Shown: positions 4,218-9,003 of the stretch, piece after piece
Position numbering within the stretch: position 1 is the stretch's first letter
How the letters are laid out: each line of letters begins with the position of its first letter
Virus record (IMG/VR): IMGVR_UViG_3300021959_000423
Span: 1-22,839 of that record
Reading direction: 5' to 3' (one strand)
Length of the DNA: 22,839 nucleotides
Origin: a virus
Made by a program: the position numbers and the translations under genes
Notes under the pieces: generated by a model
The model's database searches: none
What the model was told of the DNA's origin: nothing
The model's input: only the letters and a program-made list of their open reading frames with translations

Positions 4218-4242
4218 AAAAAAAAGCCCGCTAGGTGCGGGC
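4218..4242 (-). terminator. Intrinsic terminator of small-gene operon
   Basis: Read on the minus strand: GCCCGC, loop ACCTA, GCGGGC, then eight T residues (plus-strand A run 4218-4225). A perfect 6-bp GC stem with a U tract, 9 bases after the stop of the gene ending at 4252. It separates the regulator genes from the packaging operon. Confidence 0.9.
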
Positions 4243-7807: not shown

Positions 7808-8150
7808 AGTCGTAATCCTGCGGCGTCAGCTCGGGCAATTTAGTCGCATCGGAGTCGTTAGAGACCTGCTCTCTCGTGCGGAAAAAACCCTCATACTCAG
7901 GATACATACGCATAAAGCGACGAGCATAAAACGCGCGATAATTATTGTTGAGCTTAAATTGAGTTTCTCCGTCACCGCCGATGTCCTTCTCCCATCGGAT
8001 GCGCTCAAAAAGCCCGTTGATAGAGTAGTGCTTAAACCCTTTACCCTTCATCTCCGCACTGAAACGCTTTAGCATTTCCCACACTTCGGGGTGCTGCTGA
8101 TGGAAAGCCTCGCACTGCGTGCGCATTTCTTCGTACCTTGTATCACTCAT
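7797..8150 (-). CDS. Phage DNA-metabolism protein of unknown function
   Basis: A 117-aa protein. The pattern HQQHPEVWEMLKRF, then HYSINGLFERIRWE, then FYARRFMRMYPEYEGFFRTR is, from memory, widely conserved among small phage and prophage proteins near replication genes. No biochemical role is known to me. ATGA overlap with the replication protein ahead of it implies translational coupling, so the two are likely to act in the same process. Confidence 0.65.
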   Translation of the reverse strand: MSDTRYEEMRTQCEAFHQQHPEVWEMLKRFSAEMKGKGFKHYSINGLFERIRWEKDIGGDGETQFKLNNNYRAFYARRFMRMYPEYEGFFRTREQVSNDSDATKLPELTPQDYDYVR

Positions 8151-8521
8151 CTTGTTACCCTCTCCCCTTCAAACGTCACGTACTGCCCATATTTCTGAAG
8201 GCACAATTCGCGGAACTTTTCGCTCTGCATAAAGTCGTGTGTGCCTTCGTCAAGCTTGGTCCATCGTTTATAAGGCAACTGCCCGCTTTCCTCTTGTGCT
8301 TTTTGAGCAAACGGCGAAATACCTTTTTCCATTTGAGCGGCTTTTTTTAGCCAGTTGTTTACAAATGACTTGCAGTTTTTCTTACGTCTCGCAGGGTTGG
8401 CATCTACCCAACACTCAGCGGCGTCATACTCAGCATAAACATCGACGTTCGGATATGCGTGTTGCCACTTAATGAAATCCTCGTCTTCTGGAAACCAATC
8501 CTCGCCATAAAAGTCTTTCAT
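8147..8521 (-). CDS. Replication-initiator C-terminal-like protein
   Basis: A 124-aa protein. Residues 17-65 (WQHAYPNVDVYAEYDAAECW, then ANPARRKKNCKSFVNNWLKKA) match the segment found at the C-terminus of many phage replication initiators and DnaT-like helicase loaders. The usual N-terminal winged-helix domain is missing, so this is a stand-alone version. It is the first gene after the long structured leader. Ribosome site AGGAG, 7 nt spacing, with GAAGGGT directly before the ATG. It probably starts phage DNA replication or loads a host helicase. Confidence 0.65.
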   Translation of the reverse strand: MKDFYGEDWFPEDEDFIKWQHAYPNVDVYAEYDAAECWVDANPARRKKNCKSFVNNWLKKAAQMEKGISPFAQKAQEESGQLPYKRWTKLDEGTHDFMQSEKFRELCLQKYGQYVTFEGERVTR

Positions 8522-8553
8522 ACCCTTCTCCTTTTTTTAGACAATAGGGGTCA

Positions 8554-8689
8554 TTAGAGGCGGTTGTTGCCCTATACAAGTATCTAGCTAGTCCATCATC
8601 CATACAGTATCAGTGCAGAAAATTAACGGCTCTGCCAGACCGCGCCCTTACTACTTGGCAACATAACCACTGTTCGTCCCCGCCTCTAA
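8554..8689 (-). promoter_or_regulatory. Nested stem structure in leader of replication operon
   Basis: Three nested perfect complementary blocks are visible: TTAGAGGCGG (8554-8563) with CCGCCTCTAA (8680-8689); TGTTGCC (8565-8571) with GGCAACA (8657-8663); and AAGTA (8578-8582) with TACTT (8652-8656). Inside lies GCAGA (8615-8619) with TCTGC (8631-8635). On the minus strand this would be a closed domain in the roughly 260-nt leader of the gene at 8521, ending 33 nt before its ATG. No known riboswitch or tRNA pattern was recognised. It could equally be DNA-level structure of a replication origin. Confidence 0.55.
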
Positions 8690-8745
8690 AGGTCGTAGGA
8701 ATGAATCGGCTTTCTTGAGCGGCTGCACCTGAGACAGCACTATTT

Positions 8746-8763
8746 GACTAGGCTCGACTAGGC
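8746..8763. repeat. Short direct repeat, two copies
   Basis: GACTAGGC occurs at 8746-8753 and again at 8756-8763, a 10-bp spacing that places both copies on the same helical face. It lies just downstream of the leftward start of transcription and could be a regulator or initiator binding site. Only two copies are seen. Confidence 0.4.
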
Positions 8764-8789
8764 GTACTGAGGTGGGATGGGGAGTTATG

Positions 8790-8817
8790 AGTATACAGAC
8801 AGCTAGATTGCTGTATA
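8790..8817 (-). promoter_or_regulatory. Leftward half of divergent promoter
   Basis: On the minus strand TATACA (8817-8812), a 16-nt spacer, then TATACT (8795-8790). The -10 matches 5 of 6 and the -35 matches 4 of 6. It would start RNA near 8783, giving a long leader before the replication gene at 8521. It shares its bases with the rightward promoter through the dyad TATACAG-N12-CTGTATA (8792-8798 with 8811-8817). Confidence 0.5.
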
Positions 8818-8819
8818 AT
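8792..8819 (+). promoter_or_regulatory. Rightward promoter of small RNA
   Basis: TATACA (8792-8797), a 16-nt spacer and a perfect TATAAT (8814-8819). Expected start at about 8826-8827. This is the only plus-strand promoter for which a matching terminator (8883-8911) follows at short distance. The dyad covering both promoters means that one bound protein could block or balance both directions. Confidence 0.65.
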
Positions 8820-8825
8820 TTTCCC

Positions 8826-8911
8826 TATCCTTTGCACGCAAACCAAGGATGCCACAAGCGTAAACCCTTCCGCAAGTGGTTGGCCCCGTTTCCTCGACGG
8901 GGCTTTTTTTT
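8826..8911 (+). ncRNA. Candidate phage small RNA, about 85 nt
   Basis: Defined by the TATAAT promoter on the left and an intrinsic terminator on the right, on the strand opposite to every protein gene. The RNA can form three hairpins. The first is AUCCUU (8827-8832) with AAGGAU (8845-8850). The second is CCAC-aa-GCG (8852-8860) with CGC-aa-GUGG (8871-8879), a symmetric AA/AA internal loop under a ten-base loop UAAACCCUUC. The third is the terminator stem. There is no ORF with a ribosome site in it. The loop holds ACCCUUC, complementary to GAAGGGU before the ATG at 8521. No Rfam family was recognised. Position beside a replication gene recalls lambda OOP RNA, by analogy only. Confidence 0.65.
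8883..8911 (+). terminator. Intrinsic terminator of plus-strand small RNA
   Basis: GCCCCGT (8883-8889), loop TTCCTCG, ACGGGGC (8897-8903), then eight T residues (8904-8911). A perfect 7-bp stem with a U tract in the plus direction only; on the minus strand no T run follows the stem. It ends 3 bases before the stop codon of the leftward zinc-ribbon gene. Confidence 0.9.
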
Positions 8912-8913
8912 GC

Positions 8914-9003
8914 CTATGACTTGGGCTTGTAAACACGACCACACGCTTCGCACTTACGGATGTTGCCCGATGTTGTGGTTGAACCACCACAAGAACACTG
9001 CAT
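8914..9003 (-). CDS. 29-aa zinc-ribbon peptide
   Basis: A tiny frame: MQCSCGGSTTTSGNIRKCEA, then CGRVYKPKS. The cysteines form CxC-GG and CxxCGR pairs, as in the smallest zinc ribbons. The ATG lies 2 nt after the stop of the HTH gene and has a GGGAGG ribosome site 5 nt upstream, formed by the end of that gene. It is the last gene before the non-coding stretch. Likely a nucleic-acid- or protein-binding accessory; specific function unknown. Confidence 0.7.
   Translation of the reverse strand: MQCSCGGSTTTSGNIRKCEACGRVYKPKS

Follow-up and report, generated by a model that had tools for sequence, protein, structure and literature searches.

A conserved, unclassified RNA locus of uncultured phages with a predicted pseudoknotted leader and a candidate antisense small RNA

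The locus described here raises the question of what a perfect TATAAT hexamer, about 85 bases of hairpin-rich sequence and a GC-rich stem with eight T residues are doing on the plus strand of a viral genome whose genes read leftward. The initial annotation took this arrangement for a small folded RNA, and all of these parts are indeed present at 8814–8911 of the window, by which we mean the whole stretch of 22,839 nt that was analyzed (IMG/VR virus record IMGVR_UViG_3300021959_000423, positions 1–22,839), from an uncultured virus of bacteria. The window encodes portal, terminase, ParB/methyltransferase fusion, exonuclease, NinB-like, endolysin, and tail-fibre proteins, and all of its plausible genes lie on the minus strand, in agreement with the statement that the plus strand carries no protein genes. 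The site falls in non-coding sequence that is flanked by a zinc-ribbon ORF (8914–9003) and a 124-aa gene (Table 1). Residues 4–69 of the 124-aa product weakly match residues ~175–233 of replication protein O from Pseudomonas phage D3 (tblastn, E ~1e-3) and, also weakly, a Ruminococcus phage replisome organizer. Within the scanned 20 kb, only one strong intrinsic terminator points leftward (4226–4242, minus strand); it separates the early genes from the ParB/methyltransferase-terminase-portal genes, and a search for tRNA and tmRNA genes found none.

Table 1. Features of the locus in window coordinates
Feature	Coordinates	Strand	Basis or remark
Gene behind the proposed leader in the window, 124 aa	8147–8521	minus	Weak match to part of phage replication protein O
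Conserved non-coding block, ~390 nt	8522–8911		Homologues in about 60 contigs
Proposed leftward intercistronic leader RNA, putative sRNA target	8522–8911	minus	Ends in AAAAAAAGGAGAAGGGT ATG; start codon spacing and wobble skew
Helix P1	8554–8563 with 8680–8689	minus	Coupled insertion
Helix P2	8596–8605 with 8695–8704	minus	Crosses P1, predicted pseudoknot
Hairpin P10	8722–8725 with 8735–8738	minus	Pairing fits minus
Hairpin P8, CTAG-GCTCGA-CTAG	8748–8761		TCAG/CTGA in relative L217
Helix P3	8762–8767 with 8834–8839 (inside P5 loop)	minus	Covariation; predicted pseudoknot with P5
Hairpin or palindrome P4, TATACAG-N12-CTGTATA	8792–8817		Overlaps promoter; TGTACAG/CTGTACA in relatives
Candidate sRNA promoter	8792–8819 (-35-like TATACA 8792–8797; -10 TATAAT 8814–8819)	plus	Motif scan; -10 kept in relatives
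Putative small RNA, ~86 nt, three hairpins including terminator	8826–8911	plus	5' end inferred from -10; fold z -2.9
Hairpin P5 (first hairpin of the initial annotation)	8827–8832/8845–8850	plus	Paired changes
Hairpin P6	8852–8879 (8852–8855/8876–8879 and 8858–8860/8871–8873)	plus	AA/AA internal loop; compensated pairs
Intrinsic terminator P7 with T8	8882–8911 (stem 8882–8904; TTTTTTTT at 8904–8911)	plus	GC-rich stem and T run
HTH regulator gene, CI-repressor-like, 70 aa	9006–9218	minus	Upstream of leader; syntenic in nearly all loci

The plus-strand small RNA candidate

The two hexamers of the candidate promoter are separated by 16 bp. Promoter-like sites are not enriched by pattern alone (19 found vs. 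21.8 expected from shuffles), and the case for a promoter and its transcript is therefore built on conservation in relatives. Among 36 aligned relatives, the -10 hexamer is kept in 33, as TATAAT in 22 and as TACAAT in 11; A8818, which is located outside the P4 palindrome, is invariant. The putative RNA has a predicted fold of three hairpins (-29.5 kcal/mol), a stability reached by 2 of 200 shuffles, and the z-scores of the terminal ~88 nt on the plus strand range from -2.9 to -6.8 in 12 sequences. This stable terminal fold delimits a predicted sRNA of the size given by the initial annotation.

The terminator P7 combines a GC-rich stem with a following T run and is listed first among 14 terminator-like sites in the scan, having the strongest stem and T run. 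Its stem occurs in two main compensatory versions, GCCCCGT/ACGGGGC and GGGCCAC/GTGGCCC, both bases having changed in four of the seven pairs, and the T run is kept in all 36 sequences. Hairpin P5 appears among relatives as ATCCTT/AAGGAT, ATCTTC/GAAGAT, or ATCATTG/CAATGAT, while paired changes in P6 convert CCAC/GTGG to TCAC/GTGA and GCG/CGC to GTC/GAC. The initial annotation had named compensatory change in homologous phages as one of its tests, and the stems are kept in just this way, together with the -10 hexamer and the T run. It had also described two hairpins upstream of the terminator, one with a symmetric AA/AA internal loop: both hairpins are present and kept by compensation, but the loop is not conserved, reading AT/AA, GA/AA, or TT/AA in other sequences. 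The proposal of a folded plus-strand sRNA likewise stands as far as promoter, terminator, and stems are concerned; the candidate RNA is, however, only the 3' end of a much longer conserved block.

A conserved block with covarying helices

Relatives were collected with the HTH protein of the adjacent gene as query, which returned 43 contigs, most of them from source metagenomes that we take to be marine. A segment matching window 8521–8917, and so spanning the block, is 83–96% identical in nearly all of these contigs, the poorest being L036 with 79%, while the HTH-side flank shows 70–83% identity in the majority of them (exceptions such as L002–L005 are close relatives throughout). By these identities, the block is kept more strictly than the neighboring protein gene. 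A profile search with nhmmer detected the block in about 60 IMG/VR contigs, which include divergent groups around L036, L050, and L078. The synteny is constant, with the HTH gene, the block, and a protein like that encoded at 8147–8521, and small ORFs are inserted on either side. One 39.5-kb contig (G004, loci L220 and L221) carries large terminase, portal or head genes in two sets, only one of which is related to that of the window, and is possibly joined or chimeric.

No Rfam family accounts for the element, a point that the initial annotation had left to an Rfam scan: Rfam 15 gave 0 matches at the gathering threshold, and the best match at a relaxed threshold (E 0.012, 21.5 bits vs. 49.5 needed) falls on the terminator region. 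Among annotated phages and plasmids, the sole hit was a 27-nt match shared by six Aeromonas phages, which at E 0.5 we attribute to chance; the block had no match among 72,556 plasmid records, and BLAST of phage records gave no copy of it. A search of bacterial genomes with a 17-nt core gave two chance hits without extension. The cultured relatives recognized by TerL and exonuclease (Pelagibacter, Vibrio, and Rhodobacter phages) are too distant. A protein gene as the source of the large element was ruled out by non-triplet indels and paired changes. The sequence evidence makes the element a conserved phage RNA locus that is unclassified.

Helices P1 to P8 and P10 to P12 were derived by a mutual-information scan and inspection. 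In 36 sequences, the named structure pairs 91.1% of the cells, compared with 29.5–43.2% for slid structures, and its covariation score is 0.239 vs. 0.035–0.076 for slid and 0.103 ± 0.005 for shuffled controls; since the sequences are related, the shuffle controls overstate significance, and the slid controls, which are free of that fault, favor a structure derived from these same sequences. Changes on both sides were observed in 29 of 63 pairs, single counts being affected by misalignment within P1 and across the variable stretch 8764–8791. The block thus shows the covariation for a common fold by which a phage-encoded structured non-coding RNA is recognized.

In P1, a base inserted behind GAGG varies in concert with its partner (none/none in 22 sequences, A/T in 9, G/C in 5). 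Eight of the ten P2 pairs changed on both sides, with 21 double changes on the tree, and P3 occurs as GCGTAC/GTACGC, GCATACA/TGTATGC, GCACTCA/TGAGTGC, and GCACAC/GTGTGC. Because P1 crosses P2 and P3 uses the P5 loop, two pseudoknots are predicted. For the 240 nt on the left of the block, neither strand exceeds shuffled sequence in stability, z being mostly positive. A near-invariant core at 8705–8763, with a mean column identity of 95.4% in 36 sequences and few pairs to explain its conservation, may serve to bind a protein or polymerase. Variation within the block is greatest at 8764–8791, where L031, L032, and L044 hold an insert of ~45 bases that contains an inverted repeat of its own.

Strand, and the proposed leader and switch

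A minus-strand start codon follows the block by 11–21 nt in 49 of 51 distinct loci, most of these ORF starts being preceded by a clear AAGGAG-type Shine-Dalgarno sequence, and P1 ends ~16 nt before the A-run and Shine-Dalgarno sequence. The ORFs behind the block belong to 14 families that share no similarity with one another. As judged from these loci, genes are exchanged behind the putative leader while the leader stays, and the inconstant downstream ORF leaves no one gene as the obvious target of regulation.

The strand of the structured RNA can be approached through wobble changes, since a C opposite an A is a mismatch on the plus strand and a G·U pair on the minus strand. These changes bear directly on an alternative that we consider unlikely, namely a single plus-strand non-coding RNA of ~360 nt running from near the conserved GACAAT (8540–8545) to the terminator, with TATAAT merely a part of P4. 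The exact end of the conserved block at the T run, the extension of P3 outside the 86 nt, and the resemblance of the left-edge GACAAT/GATAAT to a -10 hexamer are all in keeping with such an RNA, and wobble changes in P5, P7, and P11 weakly favor plus. However, P2, P3, P10, and P12 together show ~29 A·C tree events against 4 G·U events when read on the plus strand, which fits minus; P10 in particular has 100% of its cells paired as minus and 80.6% as plus, being mismatched on plus at one pair in 27 of 36 sequences. P3 on its own is nearly even, its duplex being better on plus in 13 cases and on minus in 12. The opposite lean of P5, P7, and P11 indicates that a general mutational bias does not account for the skew. 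Furthermore, a long plus RNA would have no conserved -35 upstream, where the sequence consists of the Shine-Dalgarno sequence and start codon of the changing genes. We therefore read the wobble pattern as the mark of a probable structured minus-strand leader and of a plus-strand sRNA over the first part of that leader.

Thus, we propose two overlapping RNAs on opposite strands, with the sRNA acting as a cis-antisense switch on the pseudoknotted leader, a model whose chances we put at about even. The leftward operon transcript would carry a ~390-nt structured leader in the interval from the HTH gene to the gene that follows, with two pseudoknots (P1 with P2, and P3 with P5) followed by a strong Shine-Dalgarno sequence. 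The rightward sRNA of ~86 nt would start ~7 nt after the -10 hexamer, fold into P5, P6, and the terminator, and be perfectly antisense to the first part of the leader; the initial annotation's view that leftward read-through would yield its antisense is borne out as an arrangement of sequences. The loop of the P5 hairpin of the leader would form the P3 pseudoknot, and the P5 hairpin of the sRNA would present the complement of that same loop, so that sRNA binding and P3 formation would be mutually exclusive. The sRNA would in this way turn down the downstream gene or genes. The sequence element itself is strongly supported by conservation, covariation, crossing geometry, and the layout of Shine-Dalgarno sequence and start codon, and from it we infer the transcription of both RNAs, their 5' ends, the direction and level of regulation, and the mechanism. 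More tentatively, and with the balance against it, the phages may swap unrelated genes behind a portable leader that keeps its Shine-Dalgarno sequence and built-in antisense switch, which would make this a new family of large pseudoknotted RNA and a single device controlling an exchangeable cargo slot.

A second contact between the two RNAs was considered. The P6 loop of the sRNA, ACCCUUC (window 8861–8872), has its complement in the Shine-Dalgarno region (8522–8538) of the leftward gene. In L050, L065, and L217, altered P6 loops again match their own Shine-Dalgarno sequence by 7–8 bases, and the match fails in L055, L078, and L070. The association is marginal (permutation p 0.03 over eight groups; p 0.30 within subgroups), and an anti-Shine-Dalgarno contact of the sRNA is only a lead.

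The leftward leader might also act by itself, for example as a processive antitermination or translation-enhancing RNA for interchangeable genes, with the plus-strand terminator only blocking stray rightward transcription. The start codon spacing over 14 unrelated ORF families and the near-invariant core agree with this explanation, which we nevertheless hold to be quite improbable given the -10 hexamer kept ~7 nt before P5 and a plus-strand fold that is stable over precisely the last ~88 nt. Still less probable is an antisense RNA of the lambda OOP type directed against the 3' end of the convergent HTH mRNA, or simple transcriptional interference, the rest of the block then serving another purpose. 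The likeness to the lambdoid OOP RNA (PMC12197685) lies in position and direction: a short RNA ending in a terminator is encoded against the direction of the early genes, with an HTH regulator gene on the side of its terminator and, here, a weak replication-protein match on the other. OOP covers the 3' end of the cII (HTH) mRNA in antisense, whereas the sRNA predicted here stops at 8911, overlaps neither the HTH gene nor the zinc-ribbon gene, and faces a conserved pseudoknotted leader; insertions between the block and the HTH gene are common, and the covariation of P1 to P3 would be left unexplained. The least probable reading is a DNA element, such as a replication origin or an operator array with inverted repeats as protein-binding half-sites, for although the block adjoins the gene resembling replication protein O and P4 forms a 26-bp palindrome over the promoter, compensation pair by pair, with coupled indels and a strand skew in the wobble states, argues against it, as does the change of P4 type in L009, whose HTH protein is 95.7% identical to that of the window, an observation that also ruled out a palindrome tracking the HTH protein.

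Comparison with known systems

The antisense-switch model that we favor can be set beside several known RNAs. Like GOLLD, ROOL, OLE, and HEARO, the element is a long conserved structured RNA in mobile DNA; it is smaller than these, occupies a leader position, and matches no Rfam model. Its conservation above that of the adjacent protein gene and its exchangeable ORFs suggest a central regulatory role missed by protein-centered annotation, and the locus offers a covariation-supported structure with concrete compensatory changes.

In the ColE1 system, RNA I is a ~100-nt antisense RNA of three hairpins that acts against the start of the structured RNA II, and the putative sRNA, also with three hairpins, likewise faces the start of a structured RNA. 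In ColE1 the structured RNA serves as a primer that is cleaved at the origin, and the structured RNA predicted here ends at a Shine-Dalgarno sequence.

The closest likeness in logic is to plasmid ColIb-P9, in which the antisense RNA and the pseudoknot compete for the loop of the leader. The loop of the leader hairpin predicted here would similarly pair downstream as a pseudoknot, as suggested by the covariation between P3 and the P5 loop (the strand of P3 taken by itself being ambiguous), and a loop-complementary antisense RNA with its own promoter and terminator is predicted at 8814–8911 on the plus strand. In ColIb-P9, the Inc antisense RNA blocks a pseudoknot in the repZ leader that is needed for translation (PMC8383071). 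The features that the predicted locus would share are a small antisense hairpin RNA directed at a leader and a pseudoknot located upstream of the ribosome-binding site (PMC8383071, PMC10724649). The pseudoknot would in both join a hairpin loop to a downstream sequence. The present locus differs in belonging to a phage and not to a plasmid, in an sRNA with three hairpins and its own terminator, in a second leader pseudoknot, and in changing downstream genes; P3 is ~220 nt away from the ribosome-binding site, and the ORF behind the leader is one of 14 families. With no match of the block among the 72,556 plasmid records, the locus appears to resemble ColIb-P9 control in logic, and we do not file it as a member. 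Antisense-pseudoknot switches are known from plasmid copy-number control, and the same anatomy in an abundant, apparently marine group of uncultured phages would extend them to viruses.
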